64,000 nt of DNA from Sulfurospirillum diekertiae (GTDB lineage Bacteria; Campylobacterota; Campylobacteria; Campylobacterales; Sulfurospirillaceae), in contig NZ_CP039734.2 in NCBI RefSeq assembly GCF_011769985.2, positions 1,302,001-1,366,000 on the forward strand, given 5' to 3'. Of this stretch, positions 9,112-16,594 are shown piece by piece (the stretch's first letter is position 1; every line of letters begins with the position of its first letter). The position numbers were made by a program, and so were the translations under genes. Under the pieces are notes generated by a model. The model saw only the letters and a program-made list of their open reading frames with translations. It ran no database searches and had not been told where the DNA came from.

Positions 9112-9381
9112 AACATAAAATATTAGGGACGACTTTTTATCTTACTTTTTTTTTAAAAGCGTTCCTTTAACACAAATTATTGTCTGATATATTGACAAAA
9201 TCTTTATAAAATCTCCAAAAATATAAAAAAAGAAAAGTATTTACTTATTACTTCGTAAATATTATTAACTTTCATTATTTTAAAATTAAAATCTATATCT
9301 TTCCTATAACAAAGCTATAACTTTTGTATATCATTCTTAAAATGTGAAATTAATTCATAAACACATTAAAAAATAAATAAC
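9112..9381 (+). other. Gene-free AT-rich stretch upstream of pceA
   Basis: These 270 bases hold no credible reading frame. There is a T-rich stretch at 9137-9153 that may end transcription of the AhpD-like gene, then very AT-rich sequence with no strong inverted repeat. The pceA promoter probably lies in its right part or in the conserved block that follows, but I cannot assign -35 and -10 elements with confidence. Confidence 0.4.
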
Positions 9382-9463
9382 TGTACTTGGGGTTATTTAT
9401 AAAAGGTTACAAGAAGGTTTGAATACCACTGTGTAAGTTGTTACTCTTGGTATTTTTTAAGGA
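9382..9463 (+). promoter_or_regulatory. pceA leader: conserved block plus hairpin before the ribosome binding site
   Basis: The leader has three parts: TGTACTTGGG at 9382-9391; AAAGGTTACAAGAAGGTTT at 9402-9420; and a hairpin pairing 9421-9428 with 9448-9455 around a 19-base loop. A T run and AAGGAGG follow directly. The same three parts, in the same order and nearly the same spacing, precede the second rdhA gene (14804-14886). There the stem sequence is different but pairing is kept. The conserved block may be a regulator site or RNA element; the hairpin resembles an intrinsic terminator placed just before the ribosome binding site. Confidence 0.7.
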
Positions 9464-9469
9464 GGAAGT

Positions 9470-10975
9470 ATGGAAAAGAAAAAAAAGCCTGAACTCTCAA
9501 GAAGAGATTTTGGTAAGTTGATTATCGGAGCTGGAGCTGCAGCAACGATAGCTCCATTTGGTGTACCAGGTGCAAATGCAGCTGAAAAAGAGAAAAATGC
9601 AGCTGAAATTCGTCAACAATTTGCAATGACTGCAGGTTCTCCCATCATAGTTAACGACAAATTGGAAAGATATGCTGAAGTACGAACAGCGTTTATTCAT
9701 CCAACCTCATTTTTTAAACCAAACTACAAAGGTGAAGTGAAACCTTGGTTTTTATCAGCATATGATGAGAAAGTACGTCAGATTGAAAATGGTGAAAATG
9801 GTCCTAAGATGAAAGCTAAAAATGTAGGAGAAGCTAGAGCAGGTCGTGCACTTGAAGCTGCTGGATGGACCTTAGATATTAACTATGGAAACCATTATCC
9901 AAATAGATTTTTTATGTTATGGTCTGGTGAGACTATGCCTAACACCCAATTGTGGGCACCAGCAGGGTTAGATAGAAGACCTCCAGATACAACTGATCCT
10001 GTGGAACTTACAAATTATGTAAAATTTGCTGCACGTATGGCAGGTGCTGATTTGGTAGGTGTTGCAAGATTAAATCGTAACTGGGTTTATTCTGAGGCAG
10101 TAACTATACCAGCTGACGTACCTTATGAACAATCTTTGCATAAACAGATTGAAAAGCCAATCGTTTTCAAAGATGTTCCACTACCAATAGAAACTGATGA
10201 TGAATTAATTATCCCTAATACTTGTGAAAATGTTATCGTTGCAGGTATCGCTATGAACCGCGAAATGATGCAAACAGCTCCTAACAGTATGGCATGTGCA
10301 GCAACATCATTTTGTTATTCACGTATGTGTATGTTCGATATGTGGTTATGCCAGTTTATTCGTTATATGGGTTACTATGCAATACCAAGCTGTAATGGTG
10401 TTGGACAATCAGTTGCCTTTGCTGTTGAAGCAGGTTTAGGACAAGCTAGTCGTATGGGTGCTTGTATTACTCCTGAATTTGGACCAAACGTAAGACTTAC
10501 AAAAGTCTTTACAAATATGCCTTTAGTTCCAGATAAGCCTATCGACTTTGGAGTAACAGAATTTTGTGAAACATGTAAAAAATGTGCACGTGAGTGTCCT
10601 TCAAAAACAATTACTGAAGGTCCAAGAACTTTTGAAGGACGAAGTATTCATAATCAATCAGGTAAATTACAGTGGCAAAATGACTATAATAAATGCTTAG
10701 ATTATTGGCCGAAATCTGGTGGATATTGTGGCATATGTGTAGCTGTTTGCCCCTTTACAAAAGGCAATATTTGGATTCATGATGGCGTTGAATGGCTTAT
10801 TGATAACACAAGATTCTTAGACCCATTAATGCTTGGTATGGATGATGCATTGGGCTATGGTGCAAAACGAAATATTACAGAAGTTTGGGATGGAAAGATT
10901 AATACATATGGTCTAGACGCAGACCATTTTAGAGACGCTGTAAGCTTTAGAAAGGATAGGGTTAAAAAATCATGA
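9470..10975 (+). CDS. pceA: Tetrachloroethene reductive dehalogenase, catalytic subunit
   Basis: The 501-residue precursor has a twin-arginine signal (Arg11-Arg12, LSRRDFGK) that should be cleaved after Ala37, leaving a periplasmic corrinoid and iron-sulfur enzyme. It replaces chlorine in tetrachloroethene with hydrogen as the terminal step of organohalide respiration. Using S. multivorans mature numbering (+37), the residues I recall as active-site parts are present: Phe38, Trp56, Trp96, Tyr102, Tyr246 (here Tyr283), Asn272 (Asn309), Arg305 (Arg342), Trp376 (Trp413). The two [4Fe-4S] sites use Cys366/369/372/376 and Cys409/420/423/427. AAGGAGGAAGT precedes the ATG. It overlaps pceB by ATGA. 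A few residues differ from the S. multivorans sequence as I remember it, for example Ile76. Confidence 0.96.
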   Translation: MEKKKKPELSRRDFGKLIIGAGAAATIAPFGVPGANAAEKEKNAAEIRQQFAMTAGSPIIVNDKLERYAEVRTAFIHPTSFFKPNYKGEVKPWFLSAYDEKVRQIENGENGPKMKAKNVGEARAGRALEAAGWTLDINYGNHYPNRFFMLWSGETMPNTQLWAPAGLDRRPPDTTDPVELTNYVKFAARMAGADLVGVARLNRNWVYSEAVTIPADVPYEQSLHKQIEKPIVFKDVPLPIETDDELIIPNTCENVIVAGIAMNREMMQTAPNSMACAATSFCYSRMCMFDMWLCQFIRYMGYYAIPSCNGVGQSVAFAVEAGLGQASRMGACITPEFGPNVRLTKVFTNMPLVPDKPIDFGVTEFCETCKKCARECPSKTITEGPRTFEGRSIHNQSGKLQWQNDYNKCLDYWPKSGGYCGICVAVCPFTKGNIWIHDGVEWLIDNTRFLDPLMLGMDDALGYGAKRNITEVWDGKINTYGLDADHFRDAVSFRKDRVKKS

Positions 10976-11196
10976 AATTATTAAATATTTTAAATTATAA
11001 AGCGCTTGGTTTGAGTTTACTTTATTTGGCATTGATTTTGGTTACTTTCCAAATTTCAATGGGAAGTTATGGAGAGGATGAGCCACAAGCTGGTAGTATA
11101 TTAATGGTTGCTGGATTGATTTTTTCGATCATCGGCGTTTTTCTTTTAATGAAGTTCAAGCCAACATATATTTTATGGGAAAAGCTTAAGCGTTAA
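10972..11196 (+). CDS. pceB: Putative membrane anchor of PceA
   Basis: The 74-residue, very hydrophobic protein has two predicted membrane helices (~13-33 and ~44-64) separated by a short acidic loop (GSYGEDEPQAG). This is smaller than the three-helix RdhB of Firmicutes but matches the Sulfurospirillum form. It is thought to hold the dehalogenase at the periplasmic side of the inner membrane. Its ATG overlaps the pceA stop (ATGA). The second rdhB in this window (16370-16594) is nearly identical at both protein and DNA level. Confidence 0.93.
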   Translation: MKLLNILNYKALGLSLLYLALILVTFQISMGSYGEDEPQAGSILMVAGLIFSIIGVFLLMKFKPTYILWEKLKR

Positions 11197-11213
11197 TTTC
11201 TAAATCTATGCAT

Positions 11214-11255
11214 AAAGTAGGGTTTACATCATTACATGTAAACCCTACTTTTCTC
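11214..11255 (+). terminator. Strong terminator after pceAB
   Basis: A perfect 16-base-pair stem pairs 11214-11229 with 11236-11251 across a 6-base loop, followed by a T-rich stretch. It ends the pceAB transcript. The right arm contains TTACATGTAA, the core of the palindrome that recurs through the first 43 kb of the window. Confidence 0.85.
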
Positions 11256-11325
11256 TTTTTCTAAGTCATAAATATGCTTAAATATACAGCACGTTTAGCT
11301 TGACATTCCCATTATTTTGGAGTGA

Positions 11326-11493
11326 CTCCAAAGCGCTGATGAAGTGGCTGACTTGATTATGACATTTATGCAGGGATTACGAGTTCAATCACGAAATCAA
11401 TACTCTGGTGATGCAATCAAGCGAGCCATAAAAACATTTTTGGCTTTGATAAAGTCAATGGAAAAGAAAAAAAGTATATTTTTAGGTTTGTAA
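11326..11493 (+). pseudogene. C-terminal remnant of a TetR/AcrR-family regulator
   Basis: After a stop at 11323-11325 the frame reads 55 codons to TAA at 11491-11493. The translation, with segments ADEVADLIMTFMQGLR and AIKRAIKTFLALI, has the look of the ligand-binding C-terminal helices of TetR-type regulators. There is no start codon or DNA-binding domain, and upstream frames are broken. It lies between the pceAB terminator and the IscU-like gene. Family assignment is by eye and only moderately sure. Apart from this remnant, the 11256-11592 gap holds nothing I can name. Confidence 0.5.
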
Positions 11494-11592
11494 TTGATAT
11501 AAGAAAACGTTATAACTTTTTTTTCAGTTTTAAGAGAGATGACTTGGTAAATAACTCTCTTTTGAGCTAGATCGCCAATTATCTCTCTTGTT

Positions 11593-12009
11593 TTAAAAAG
11601 TTAGAGTCGTAATGCGCTCTTCTTTCTCTTTTTCATAATAAGCTTCTACGCACTCTTTATACGCTGTTAAAAATAACATGCTGCATCGTGATTCTTTAGA
11701 ATCGTCATCTTTGATTTGTTTCAAAATATTACCAGCTAAAATGTAAGTCTCTGAAAGCGTAGCATTAAAAGCAGAATCTAAATAAAGCGAAGCTTGTGCA
11801 AGCAGTGATGGGCAACCTTTGATTTCAAAACCACATCTGACAGTCTTATCATCTTCAATTTGCATAGTAAGGACAACTTTACCTTTTCCATCGGGGTGAA
11901 GGCATGTCGCTTTGGCATTGTAATTATCTAATAGTCCATAAAAACGAGGGTTTTTCATATGGTCTTCTAATTGGCTTATGAGCCCTGTGTAGTCAAAATC
12001 ATCACGCAT
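11593..12009 (-). CDS. IscU/NifU-like iron-sulfur scaffold protein
   Basis: The 138-residue protein resembles the IscU/NifU N-terminal scaffold, with candidate cluster ligands at Cys36 (ATCLHPDGKG), Cys66 (KGCPSLL) and a late Cys near 109 (ESRCSML). The spacing fits the three-cysteine scaffold. It is transcribed against pceAB from the strand that also carries the kinase/regulator pair. Its position supports a role in supplying the two [4Fe-4S] clusters of PceA, which is inference. A ribosome binding site (AAAGGAATAAAC in the minus-strand sense) precedes the ATG. A related gene is known at this place in Sulfurospirillum dehalogenation regions. Confidence 0.8.
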   Translation of the reverse strand: MRDDFDYTGLISQLEDHMKNPRFYGLLDNYNAKATCLHPDGKGKVVLTMQIEDDKTVRCGFEIKGCPSLLAQASLYLDSAFNATLSETYILAGNILKQIKDDDSKESRCSMLFLTAYKECVEAYYEKEKEERITTLTF

Positions 12010-12159
12010 AGTGTTTATTCCTTTAGTTATAAATTTTAATTATGGCAAAAAAGTATAGGACGTTTATAGGTAAAATATAAGTTAATTAGACGAAAAAACC
12101 TATTATCTCATACTGCGCATTCCTAATGTCTAGAAGTATTTTCATACAAATATAGCATA

Positions 12160-13983
12160 TTAATTAACATGGCTAAGATCAATGATAAATTTTGCGCCTT
12201 TTTTAGAATTCTTTACATGTAAAGAACCACCGATGTTTTTTTCTATGATAATTTTTGCCATATAAAGCCCCAAACCAGTGCCATTTTTTTCTTTTTTAGT
12301 GCTAAAGTATGGGTCAAATATCTTCTCAATGATCTCAAGATCAATTCCTTCTGCATTATCTTCTATGAATATTTCTTTGTTTTTGATAGTAATCCATATC
12401 TGTTTGTCTTCTTTGGTTTTCAAGGCATCTTTGGCGTTGCTCATGAGAATGGTTAAGACTTGAATGAGTTCATTTTTACATCCAATGATAGTACTTTCAT
12501 CGCTCTTTACATGTAAAGAAATTTGTTCTTGTTTAAAAGGTGTTCGGAGTAATACCATGGCACTCTCAACGGCGCTTTTAAGGAGAAAAACACGCTCCTC
12601 TTTTTTTGTAGAAAAGAAATTTAAAAAATCATTGATAGTATTTGACATGTATTTTATCTGTGTATTGGCTTCATGGACCTTTGTTTTCAATTTTTCATGT
12701 GAAAGCATTTGAAGTTCACTGGTCATTTCAATGTTGGCCAAAGTTGTTGAGACATTGTTAAGAGGTTGTCGCCATTGGTGAGCGATACTTGCAATCATCT
12801 CGCCCATTGCAGCAAGGCGTGATTTGGCTAAAAGCTCTTTTTGAAAAGAGAGTTTTTCATAAAAGAGTTTACTCAACCTGATATAAATAGAAAAGCACAG
12901 TAAAATTGCAGCAATAGTATTGGTGACCTGCATATTGTTGATGTAGGTGCCCTTGTTTAAGTAGGTATCAAAGAATTTGATATCAAATGAAGAAAAATAG
13001 AAGATAAATGGGTAGTAGATAAAGGCTGAGCTGATGATGTATAAAACGGAGACTGTGAAATCTTTTTTGAGGTTGACAATACCAACCATGAAAAAAAAGG
13101 GTAGAATTAATGCTGCTATAATGTAGCTGTAGTGGTCAAAGATAAAATTGTAGATATTTAATATTAAAGAGAAGAGAAGGCTTATATTGATAAATTTATC
13201 AACCCAAAGATAATTATTTTCTGTTTCAAAAAAGTATTTAGTAAAGAGTAGAAAAGTGATAATGTGAAGGGCAGGGAAGAAGATATTAAAAAGGACAATG
13301 ATATTTTTATTGGAAAAGTTTAACCACTCTAATAAGACGACAATATCAGGAGAACAGTAGAGTGTTGGGGGTAAAAGTACCAAGCAATAGTATCCCAAAC
13401 TTTTTTCTTTGATAGAAAAAAATACGATTAAGTTAAAGAAAAATATACTAATTAAAATTCCGAAAAAGAATCCATTGTCAAAATAAGACTTATCTGTTGA
13501 AATAACACTAAAGGTTTTTTCTTGATTAACTATTTTTATGGATTTAAAGACATCATACCCTTTTTTTTCATTAGATTTTACATATAGGGTTAAAGTTTCA
13601 TTGGGGCTAATGATAAAATTATCAAATACAAACCCAGTGCGATCTTGGTCATAAAGTGAAGAATGTTTTAGTATTTGATTATGTTTAACATAATAAAGAT
13701 CCAATTTGGCGTTGTACCAAAAGAAGATAATGCTTTTTTCAAGTTGTTGAACATTATTATTGGACATAGGTATTTTTATCCAAAAATTTCTGTTATCTAA
13801 ATTTCGCATATCAGAGTATTGTAGATTTACTTTCGAAAAACTAGGATTATTAATAGCTTCATCAATAGATATATCTTTTTTAAGGAGATACGTTGATGGA
13901 TTTTCTAAATTAATATAAGGCAAAGCACAAGCAGGAGAAAGTATTAATAAATAAACAATCAAAAAAGAGCGTAGTAGTTTCAT
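12160..13983 (-). CDS. Sensor histidine kinase with 7TM-DISM input, unit 1
   Basis: The 607-residue protein starts with a signal peptide, followed by a periplasmic all-beta region (to ~170) and a block of seven membrane helices (~175-370) typical of 7TMR-DISM sensors. The cytoplasmic kinase has His402 in an HQWRQPLNN H-box, an N-box (LMSNAKDALK) and GTGLGLYMAK. It overlaps its regulator gene by ATGA (13980-13983). A two-component system of this sort is reported to control tetrachloroethene respiration in Sulfurospirillum; the signal is presumably the chlorinated ethene or a membrane effect of it. Two copies of TTTACATGTAAA lie inside the gene, at 12212 and 12506. Confidence 0.92.
   Translation of the reverse strand: MKLLRSFLIVYLLILSPACALPYINLENPSTYLLKKDISIDEAINNPSFSKVNLQYSDMRNLDNRNFWIKIPMSNNNVQQLEKSIIFFWYNAKLDLYYVKHNQILKHSSLYDQDRTGFVFDNFIISPNETLTLYVKSNEKKGYDVFKSIKIVNQEKTFSVISTDKSYFDNGFFFGILISIFFFNLIVFFSIKEKSLGYYCLVLLPPTLYCSPDIVVLLEWLNFSNKNIIVLFNIFFPALHIITFLLFTKYFFETENNYLWVDKFINISLLFSLILNIYNFIFDHYSYIIAALILPFFFMVGIVNLKKDFTVSVLYIISSAFIYYPFIFYFSSFDIKFFDTYLNKGTYINNMQVTNTIAAILLCFSIYIRLSKLFYEKLSFQKELLAKSRLAAMGEMIASIAHQWRQPLNNVSTTLANIEMTSELQMLSHEKLKTKVHEANTQIKYMSNTINDFLNFFSTKKEERVFLLKSAVESAMVLLRTPFKQEQISLHVKSDESTIIGCKNELIQVLTILMSNAKDALKTKEDKQIWITIKNKEIFIEDNAEGIDLEIIEKIFDPYFSTKKEKNGTGLGLYMAKIIIEKNIGGSLHVKNSKKGAKFIIDLSHVN
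12209..12226. repeat. TTTACATGTAAA palindrome, copy 3, extended to 18 bases
   Basis: Inside kinase 1; extended symmetrically by TTC/GAA to an 18-base perfect palindrome. Confidence 0.8.
12506..12517. repeat. TTTACATGTAAA palindrome, copy 4
   Basis: Inside kinase 1, about 300 bases from copy 3; C/G flanks give 14 bases. Confidence 0.8.
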
Positions 13984-14651
13984 TTATAGAGTTTCAATTT
14001 ATAACCAAGTCTTGCTACATTAATAATAGTCTCTGGAGGCAAATGTTTTCGGATATCTCGTACTAACGAACGAATAGCGGCACTACTCATACCTTCTTCC
14101 CAGATATTATTTTCAAACTCTTGATAACTAACAATTTCATTAACACGTTTTAGTAAATATTCTAAAAAAGTGATTTCACTTCTTCTCAAAATTACATCTT
14201 TCTCATTGACAAAAAGAGCACGTTTAATAGTGTCATAATAAACTATATCAGAAAAATAAATTTTTTCATTTTTATTGTTTTTAAGATTAGCAACACATTT
14301 TTTAAGAGCATTTTTGAGATCAATCGCGGTGACAGGTTTTAGGATATAAGCTGCTAGATTAAGTTCAACGGCTTTTAAAAAATACTCAGTGTCTGTATAA
14401 GCAGTAGCAATGACAAGAGGTATTTTTTGGTTAAATTCACGAATTTGTTCACACACTTCAAGTCCATTAAAGTAGGGCATTTCGATGTCAAAAATAGCAA
14501 TATCAATAGTATTGTTTTGAAAGATTTGAAGAGCTTCTTTCCCATCTTTGGCTAAATATACTTTTTTGCAAAAAAGAGAAAGTATTTCTCCTATGTTTTC
14601 ACGAGTTTGTTCTTCATCATCTGCATAGAGTATTGTATAAGAAGCGAGCAT
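13980..14651 (-). CDS. OmpR-type response regulator, unit 1
   Basis: The 223-residue regulator has a receiver domain with Asp11/Asp12, phosphoacceptor Asp55 (FDIEMPYFNG) and Lys105, then a winged-helix DNA-binding domain (~130-223). It is transcribed first, with the kinase overlapping its stop, and runs divergently from the second rdhA across a 240-base spacer. By position it could act on pceA, on rdhA2 or on both. The homologue at 18554-19225 shares the overall layout and many segments, so the two systems look like paralogues. Confidence 0.92.
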   Translation of the reverse strand: MLASYTILYADDEEQTRENIGEILSLFCKKVYLAKDGKEALQIFQNNTIDIAIFDIEMPYFNGLEVCEQIREFNQKIPLVIATAYTDTEYFLKAVELNLAAYILKPVTAIDLKNALKKCVANLKNNKNEKIYFSDIVYYDTIKRALFVNEKDVILRRSEITFLEYLLKRVNEIVSYQEFENNIWEEGMSSAAIRSLVRDIRKHLPPETIINVARLGYKLKLYK

Positions 14652-14803
14652 GTTAAATCCCTGAAATTTTATGAATAATGTACGTATTATAAAAAAAGAA
14701 ATATAGAACTTGTAGATAAAAAATATTTTCCTTCTATTTTAGTTATACAACGGTTGCATAAGTTTTAAATACAATTTTCATAATAAGTCAGATGTTAAAT
14801 GGT

Positions 14804-14886
14804 TGTACTTGGGATCATTTAATTAAAGGTTACAAGAAGGTTTAAAATCATTATCATGATTGTATGGTAGATGATTTTTTAAGGAG
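14804..14886 (+). promoter_or_regulatory. rdhA2 leader: same conserved block and hairpin as pceA
   Basis: TGTACTTGGG is at 14804-14813, AAAGGTTACAAGAAGGTTT at 14825-14843, and a hairpin pairs 14844-14851 with 14871-14878 around a 19-base loop. A T run and AAGGAG follow. Relative to the pceA leader, at least four stem positions differ on both arms so that pairing is kept. The block lies in the divergent spacer between the unit 1 regulator (minus strand) and rdhA2. It probably controls rdhA2 the same way as the pceA leader controls pceA. Confidence 0.7.
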
Positions 14887-14891
14887 TAAAT

Positions 14892-16373
14892 ATGGAAAAG
14901 AAAAAACCTGAACTTTCACGTAGAGATTTTGGAAAGATAGTTGCTGGCGTTGGTGTTGCGGTTACTATTGCACCATTTGGGGGCACAGATGCTCATGCAA
15001 AAGAAAAAGCATCGCAAGAGATTCGTCATCAATTCGCGATGCCAGATGGGGTATCTCCTATCAAAATCAATGAAAAGTATGAAAGATTTAATGAGGGGCA
15101 TGTGGCATTTTATCATCCCTCTTCAGTGATGATTCCAAACTTCAAAGGAGAAACTAAGTTTTGGGTGTTTTCTATGATGGACCAAAAGCAAAATTTGATT
15201 AATACAGCACAACATGCACCTGGCGTTAAAGCTCCAAGTGTTGCTGAGGCAAGATCTGCTAGAGCATGGGAATCAGCTGCGTGGACACTGAATGAAATGC
15301 TAGGATATGGAAAGCCAAATAGAAAGATGCATTTATGGGATAATTTTAAAGCAGCAAAGGATTGGCCACATATCTATAACAAAGCACCAGATGAAAAAGA
15401 TCCTGCCATATTAACAAATCAGATTAAATACGTTACAAGATTAGCAGGGGCTGACTTAGTGGGTATTGCAAGATTGAACCGAAATTGGATCTTTAAAGAG
15501 GCTTTTACTACAGTATCAGATAAGCCTGAGGATGATAATAACTTTATCACAAAGCCAATTAACTTTAAAGATATTGAAAAACCAACGGAAACAGAAGATG
15601 AATACATTATTCCAAATAGCTTTGCCAATGTTATCGTTTCTGCTTTTGCGATGAACCGTGATATGATGCAGTGTTTGGCTACTTCTATGGCACATGCAGC
15701 TGCGGCACTTTGTTACTCTCGTATGGTGGCGCATGATATGTGGATTTGTCAGTTTATTCGTAACCAAGGCTACTATGCAATACCAAGCTGTAATGGTGTT
15801 GGACAATCAGTTGCCTTTGCTGTTGAAGCAGGTTTAGGACAAGCTAGTCGTATGGGAACTATCATCACCCCTGAGTATGGACCAATGGTTCGTCTTTCTA
15901 AGATCTTTACCAATATGCCTCTTATTCCCGATAAACCAATTGATTTTGGTGTTACAGAGTTTTGTGAAACATGTAAAAAATGTGCAAGAGACTGTCCTTC
16001 CAAGGCAATCTCAGAAGGGCCACAATCCTATGAAGCACGAGATATTCATAATGCAAATGGCCGCTACCAATGGCACAATGACCATAAAAAATGTTTACAG
16101 TATTGGGTTGAATCGGGCGGAGACTGTGGCATATGTGTAGCTGTTTGCCCCTTTACAAAAGGCAATATTTGGATTCATGATGGCGTTGAATGGTTGATTG
16201 ATAAAACAAGATTCCTTGATCCTGTAATGCTAGGTATGGATGATGCACTGGGTTATGGTAAAACACGAAATGTAGAAGAAGTATGGAAAGGTAAAATCAA
16301 TACCTATGGTTTAGATACATCTCACTTTAAAGATACGGAGACAACAGGAAAGGATAGGGTAAAAAAATCATGA
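14892..16373 (+). CDS. rdhA: Second reductive dehalogenase catalytic subunit, substrate unknown
   Basis: The 493-residue precursor has a twin-arginine signal (LSRRDFGK; likely cleavage after AHA, residue 36). It keeps the residues matching PceA's catalytic Tyr (Tyr275), Asn (Asn301), Arg (Arg334) and Trp (Trp405), and both cysteine sets of the [4Fe-4S] clusters (CETCKKCARDCP; then CLQYW and CGICVAVCP). It therefore looks functional. It differs from PceA over much of the substrate-lining N-terminal half but is identical at DNA level in two blocks (15771-15856 and 16125-16193). AAGGAGTAAAT precedes the ATG. It overlaps rdhB by ATGA. The substrate cannot be read from sequence. Confidence 0.93.
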   Translation: MEKKKPELSRRDFGKIVAGVGVAVTIAPFGGTDAHAKEKASQEIRHQFAMPDGVSPIKINEKYERFNEGHVAFYHPSSVMIPNFKGETKFWVFSMMDQKQNLINTAQHAPGVKAPSVAEARSARAWESAAWTLNEMLGYGKPNRKMHLWDNFKAAKDWPHIYNKAPDEKDPAILTNQIKYVTRLAGADLVGIARLNRNWIFKEAFTTVSDKPEDDNNFITKPINFKDIEKPTETEDEYIIPNSFANVIVSAFAMNRDMMQCLATSMAHAAAALCYSRMVAHDMWICQFIRNQGYYAIPSCNGVGQSVAFAVEAGLGQASRMGTIITPEYGPMVRLSKIFTNMPLIPDKPIDFGVTEFCETCKKCARDCPSKAISEGPQSYEARDIHNANGRYQWHNDHKKCLQYWVESGGDCGICVAVCPFTKGNIWIHDGVEWLIDKTRFLDPVMLGMDDALGYGKTRNVEEVWKGKINTYGLDTSHFKDTETTGKDRVKKS

Positions 16374-16594
16374 AATTATTAAATATTTTAAATTATAAAG
16401 CAATTGGTTTGAGTTTACTTTATTTGGCATTGATTTTGGTTACTTTCCAAATTTCAATGGGAAGTTATGGAGAAGATGAGCCACAAGCTGGTAGTATATT
16501 AATGGTTGCTGGATTGATTTTTTCGATCATCGGTGTTTTTCTTGCAATGAAGTTTAAGCCAAACTATATTTTATGGGATAAACTTGAGCGTTAA
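16370..16594 (+). CDS. rdhB: Putative membrane anchor of the second dehalogenase
   Basis: This is a 74-residue two-helix membrane protein, differing from PceB at only about six positions and nearly identical to pceB in DNA sequence. It should anchor the second dehalogenase at the inner membrane. The ATG overlaps the rdhA stop (ATGA). The extreme similarity of the two rdhB genes compared with the much lower similarity of the rdhA N-terminal halves points to recent exchange between the two units, or to strong constraint on this small protein. Confidence 0.92.
   Translation: MKLLNILNYKAIGLSLLYLALILVTFQISMGSYGEDEPQAGSILMVAGLIFSIIGVFLAMKFKPNYILWDKLER

Follow-up and report, generated by a model that had tools for sequence, protein, structure and literature searches.

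A candidate structured 5′ leader shared by the pceA and rdhA2 reductive dehalogenase genes of Sulfurospirillum

Introduction

An invariant 8-nt loop is not among the defining features of ribosome standby sites or of stabilizing 5′-UTR hairpins. Structured leaders of reductive dehalogenase (rdhA) genes have been proposed previously, since the literature lists the rdhA motif (WRC-34-1) of Dehalococcoides among weak riboswitch candidates (PMC11109978); it is a structured RNA of unknown function located immediately 5′ of reductive dehalogenase genes. In Sulfurospirillum, the regulator PceP (RR2), whose regulon is marked by the element CTATW-N17-CTATW, exerts its effect on the DNA, either at the −35 box or further upstream (PMC7755780). 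Without PCE, transcription in the region was reported for the TCS2 genes only and none for pceA (PMC7755780); control of pceA is therefore exerted at initiation.

We analyzed a 64,000-nt window of Sulfurospirillum diekertiae (NZ_CP039734.2, positions 1,302,001 to 1,366,000, forward strand; coordinates given below are relative to the window) and compared the leaders of its two dehalogenase genes, pceA and rdhA2, with these systems. The leaders share with WRC-34-1 their location directly 5′ of dehalogenase genes; they differ in source, WRC-34-1 having been found in Dehalococcoides and environmental sequences (PMC11109978), and the comparison covered location and source, the WRC-34-1 consensus being available only as a figure. 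The region upstream of an rdhA gene of Dehalococcoides pDhc6, which we inspected and folded, had no visible resemblance to the Sulfurospirillum leaders. With standby sites and 5′-UTR hairpins the leaders have in common a purine-rich single-stranded stretch between hairpins, just 5′ of the Shine-Dalgarno sequence, and they differ in possessing an invariant 8-nt loop, as predicted from sequence and folding. PceP controls the same pceA promoter, and the study describing its regulon is also the source of the transcription start site used here; its text mentions no leader, hairpin, UTR, or riboswitch (PMC7755780), nor was the Sulfurospirillum leader structure mentioned in the literature search made for it.

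Results

Architecture of the two leaders

Direct reading of the window identified leaders containing a shared block and a hairpin, P2, ahead of the Shine-Dalgarno sequence in both pceA (9373–9458) and rdhA2 (14794–14880) (Table 1). The block, whose position had been given correctly in a preliminary description of this DNA, consists of GTACTTGGG, 10 (pceA) or 11 (rdhA2) bases, and then AAAGGTTACAAGAAGGTTT. Folding detected a second hairpin, P1, that the preliminary description had overlooked, and the shared TGTACTTGGG proved to be its 8-nt loop, GUACUUGG. The order in both genes is P1 with its invariant loop, a 19-nt linker that is likewise invariant, P2, whose sequence is free, a U6 run, and the Shine-Dalgarno sequence.

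Table 1. Features of the pceA and rdhA2 leaders and genes, in window coordinates
Feature	Position	Strand	Evidence
pceA promoter: CTATA repeats at 9293, 9304, and 9315 and TATCAT −10 box at 9329–9334	9293–9334	+	sequence, PMC7755780, promoter scan
Start of pceA transcription, carried over from S. multivorans	9342	+	published TSS, 128-nt leader of identical sequence
P1, pceA leader: ATAAATAACT / loop GTACTTGG (9383–9390) / GGTTATTTAT, 10 bp	9373–9400	+	folding
Invariant linker AAAGGTTACAAGAAGGTTT, pceA leader	9402–9420	+	sequence, alignment
P2, pceA leader: 8-bp outer stem (9421–9428/9448–9455) and GTAA/TTAC inner stem	9421–9455	+	folding, pair table
T6 run (9453–9458) and Shine-Dalgarno AAGGAGG (9459–9465), pceA	9453–9465	+	sequence
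pceA, PCE reductive dehalogenase, 501 aa	9470–10975	+	
P1, rdhA2 leader: GTTAAATGGTT / loop GTACTTGG (14805–14812) / GATCATTTAAT, 11 bp	14794–14823	+	folding
Invariant linker AAAGGTTACAAGAAGGTTT, rdhA2 leader	14825–14843	+	sequence, alignment
P2, rdhA2 leader: 8-bp outer stem (14844–14851/14871–14878), extended by TATCAT/ATGGTA	14844–14878	+	folding, pair table
T6 run (14875–14880) and Shine-Dalgarno AAGGAG (14881–14886), rdhA2	14875–14886	+	sequence
rdhA2, second reductive dehalogenase, 493 aa, reported untranscribed	14892–16373	+	

Position of the element in the transcript

Start sites in S. multivorans were mapped by dRNA-seq by Esken et al. 2020 (PMC7755780, Table A10), who placed the pceA transcription start site (TSS) at 1491183, 128 nt 5′ of the ATG at 1491311. 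The G006 genome fits S. multivorans, with the published coordinates falling at the expected distances from its genes; the last two units of Table A10, whose values are apparently interchanged or mistyped, were excluded from use. The 128-nt pceA leader holds the whole element, and the TSS lies upstream of the shared block, P1, and P2, which places the element inside the pceA mRNA; a start downstream of the hairpin, the arrangement that the preliminary description had named as contrary to its proposal, was not what was found. The pceA leader is unusually long compared with those of five other start sites in the region, which span 24 to 48 nt (AhpD-like, 35 nt; NifU-like, 24 nt; TCS1, 28 nt; TCS2, 24 nt; small membrane protein, 48 nt).

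The pceA promoter was described, with EMSA, in the same study (PMC7755780); its CTATA repeats match the published PceP binding element, and our promoter scan flagged 9306–9334. PceP controls pceA initiation at this promoter, upstream of the leader element (PMC7755780). The rdhAB genes were reported as untranscribed, with no mapped start and a promoter inferred by alignment (PMC7755780), and an rdhA2 start at approximately 14777 is our own estimate. A promoter inside the shared block was considered and rejected, the scan having found a −35/−10-like pair in rdhA2 only.

Distribution among genomes

Relatives of PceA were found in 5 of 24 Sulfurospirillum genomes, and no rdhA types other than pceA and rdhA2 were encountered in the genus. 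A search of 397 Campylobacterota genomes with Pfam PF13486, of incomplete sensitivity in that it detected just one of the two rdhA genes per genome, found no other rdhA beyond the five Sulfurospirillum genomes. The leaders in those five genomes and on plasmid pSulSP of Sulfurospirillum sp. 'SP' match those of the window, with 230 of 230 nt identical on pSulSP when one copy of each gene was compared. A covariance model of P1 plus linker gave two strong matches per genome in these five, a further four on pSulSP, where the second copy of the organohalide-respiration island was assessed solely by this model, and nothing else convincing among the 24 genus and 397 phylum genomes; the weak extra matches that were inspected lay in coding sequence or covered part of the model, as expected by chance. 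No convincing leader element was detected in viral contigs and phages, and among plasmids only pSulSP carries the leaders. Rfam 15 covariance models, including searches at permissive thresholds, produced chance matches only and none near the gathering cut-off, and we rejected assignment to a known Rfam riboswitch or leader family. The element appears to be restricted to pceA and rdhA2, and all the data contain just two distinct leader sequences.

The pSulSP island (NZ_CP118374.1; L027, L029) is present as two inverted copies on the 200-kb plasmid, and IS21 and Tn3 elements adjoin the copies. A plasmid of this kind is a possible route for spread of the island; an earlier study saw no indication that mobile elements surround the rdh genes (PMC7755780).

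Two hairpins of unequal support

The arms of P1 differ between pceA and rdhA2 and yet pair in both, around an identical loop. Of the 10 pairs compared, three differ in both arms and one in a single arm; the remaining six, five of which lie mid-stem, are the same. The predicted pair probability of P1 exceeds 0.95 in both full leaders, its stability is greater than that of shuffled sequences (z of −4.0 and −3.2 for the two leaders), and a stem of 10 or more pairs closing the fixed loop arose from shuffled flanks in only 0.2% (pceA) and 0.02% (rdhA2) of cases. On these folding results P1 is the better supported of the two hairpins.

P2 is the hairpin of the preliminary description, and its eight pairs with a 19-nt loop are present in both leaders at the positions claimed. 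The pair table bore out four pairs with both arms changed and added a single-sided change (G·U to A-U), with none broken. The loops had been called unrelated: they are indeed just 26% identical by hand count, less than the 59% identity of pceA and rdhA2 at fourfold sites, and they are themselves partly paired (GTAA/TTAC in pceA; TATCAT/ATGGTA in rdhA2). Because of this low loop identity, and because a MAFFT alignment arranges the P2 region differently, column-by-column homology of P2 is unsure. When the two P2 segments were shuffled, an 8-bp stem of some kind arose in 16% and 33% of cases, and the same geometry in both arose in 0.19%, so that the support given by P2 taken alone is modest.

In the full pceA RNA, the mean pair probability of P2 is only 0.02–0.12, as the U run and UCUUG are engaged by the linker in a competing fold that beats P2 by 1–2 kcal/mol. 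This linker pairing is worth −10.0 kcal/mol in pceA versus −3.0 in rdhA2, where it is not conserved. Sequestration of the Shine-Dalgarno sequence was also considered and rejected; the site is predicted to be mostly unpaired in both leaders (0.50–0.77), and there is therefore no clear sequestor.

When P1 and P2 are taken together, both partners have changed in 7 of the 18 pairs and a single partner in 2, and no pair is broken. All 18 pairs were kept in 0 of 200,000 trials under a random-site null and with a probability of 0.002 under a null conditional on the sites that actually changed, and single hairpins scored z values of −2.9 to −4.0 against shuffles; these statistics are post hoc, the structures having been picked after the sequences were viewed, and they come from two related sequences. 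Shuffle tests also showed that the AT-rich background pairs readily. The earlier proposal of selection for RNA structure is thus moderately supported, and better through P1 than through the P2 hairpin on which it was based. Aligning the rdhA leaders of the genus, the check suggested at the time, placed the element in both rdhA types and added no covariation, as the leaders are identical across strains; the covariation rests on two paralogues because each of the six dehalogenating Sulfurospirillum sequences carries the same pair of leaders.

Exchange between the paralogues

Although pceA and rdhA2 are approximately 70% identical overall, pceB (10972–11196) and rdhB (16370–16594) are 95% identical in DNA (213 of 225 positions). 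At the 3′ end of pceA of JPD-1 (L009/G004), a 114-nt stretch (alignment codons ~470–507) matches rdhA2 at all 36 informative sites, and in pceA of pSulSP (L027; codons ~339–346) a 21-nt stretch does so at 9 of 9. We read these tracts as gene conversion, with rdhA2 as the donor and pceA as the recipient. Comparison of pceA among G000, G004, G005, G006, G011, and SP found that the differences between several strains are nearly all nonsynonymous, with nonsynonymous:synonymous counts of 14:0 for G000/G006 and 36:2 for G000/G011; in strain SP, the 5.4 kb behind pceA are 99.96% identical and the leader is identical. Such a pattern points to strong diversifying selection on pceA or to targeted change, and rdhA2, invariant and reported as untranscribed, seems to behave like a silent template for pceA diversification. 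A donor role of rdhA2 would account for a pattern left open by earlier papers, pceA being the fast-changing partner.

Because of the conversion from rdhA2 to pceA and the 95% identity of pceB and rdhB, identity of the shared block is weaker evidence for selection than it appears, and it could partly reflect homogenization. The whole leader pattern might be accounted for in the same way, by ancestry and gene conversion only, the block being left over or homogenized and the hairpins arising by chance in AT-rich DNA. The two conversion tracts and the near identity of pceB and rdhB speak for this explanation, as do the frequency of P2-like stems in shuffles and the 59% identity that pceA and rdhA2 still retain at fourfold sites. 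It nevertheless appears unlikely: two perfectly kept pieces flank ~10 changed bases that coincide with P1 arm positions and have changed in pairs, the pattern is common to all strains, and the joint test of 18 pairs lies well below chance expectation. The paired changes in P1 are stronger evidence than the identity of the block.

Discussion

We tentatively propose, with somewhat less than even confidence, that the pceA and rdhA2 mRNAs share a homologous structured 5′ leader that acts after transcription initiation and tunes translation or mRNA stability. P1 would present the invariant GUACUUGG loop, followed by the invariant purine-rich linker (AAAGGUUACAAGAAGGUUU), P2, U6, and the Shine-Dalgarno sequence. 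The P1 loop and linker would be recognized as RNA, either by a protein or by the ribosome, which would use them as a standby region flanked by the two hairpins; recognition of these parts is the simplest reading because they are the invariant pieces. P2 may keep the ribosome binding site open or protect the message, so that dehalogenase mRNAs would be translated or stabilized at a set level once PceP has activated the promoter. As a working hypothesis, the leader element probably sets the amount of enzyme made. The direct basis of the proposal is threefold: the pceA transcript contains the element within its leader, P1 and P2 can form in both copies, and loop and linker are invariant between the paralogues. 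From this we infer selection on the RNA structure, an effect on translation or stability, and a binding partner. Counting against it are the number of sequences, which is two, the post hoc choice of structures, the disfavored P2 of pceA, and the reported absence of rdhAB transcription.

The linker could instead be a DNA site, a direct repeat AAGGTTACAAG-AAGGTTT of the OmpR/PhoB form at which the TCS1 regulator (13980–14651) blocks or modulates transcription downstream of the start. The repeat has an 11-bp period in both leaders, within the ~10–11 bp of OmpR-type sites, an OmpR-type regulator gene lies between pceA and rdhA2, and the published binding assays concerned RR2 only (PMC7755780). We nonetheless regard this as distinctly unlikely, for it leaves unexplained the changes in the P1 arms that keep pairing, AAGGTT-N5-AAGGTT is hardly enriched in the genome (five matches versus four for controls), and the AAGGTT repeat with an ACAAG spacer is confined to these leaders; PceP (RR2), for its part, binds and needs the CTATA element rather than the shared block (PMC7755780).

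Of the two roles raised in the preliminary description, control of translation is possible; the other, transcription attenuation, would have P2 and U6 as an intrinsic terminator, to which the linker could be added as the competing strand that breaks P2. Six T residues do directly follow the hairpin in both leaders, and the strong pairing of the pceA linker with UCUUG and the U run is mutually exclusive with P2. We give attenuation little credence, however: in place of a GC-rich stem, P2 has an AU-rich outer stem with one or two G-C pairs, it is weak (−9.6 and −9.3 kcal/mol versus −21.1 for the terminator behind pceB), disfavored in the pceA leader, and absent from the calls of a terminator scan, rdhA2 does not retain the antiterminator pairing, and the response to PCE is reported at initiation (PMC7755780). 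The suggested connection to the slow loss of pce expression found no evidence in its favor, PceP controlling initiation.

Pairing of CUUG in the P1 loop with CAAG in the linker (4 bp) would form a compact H-type pseudoknot that gates translation of the dehalogenase, an enzyme in need of a cofactor, via a small ligand, such as a cobamide intermediate or halogenated substrate, or otherwise via a dedicated protein; we consider this highly doubtful, and if true it would define a novel class of riboswitch-like elements particular to organohalide respiration. Leader-peptide control, in which the linker encodes the end of a short upstream frame whose stop lies at the foot of P2 and whose ribosomes would control access to the rdhA start, seems very improbable, since the frames of both genes end in IKGYKKV-stop (14792–14845 in rdhA2; 9378–9422 in pceA) with a synonymous ATA/ATT difference and TGA and TAA both serving as stops, but that of pceA has no Shine-Dalgarno sequence and no ATG, just a TTG inside the P1 loop, a good start codon exists only in rdhA2, and the conserved loop is read in different frames in the two genes.

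We regard the Sulfurospirillum leader, with moderate confidence, as a new orphan cis-acting leader RNA. If the proposed post-initiation leader is real, expression of pceA has a second layer, acting after initiation, beside the PceP two-component system, and the element would matter for heterologous dehalogenase production and in accounting for the enzyme levels of strains used in bioremediation.
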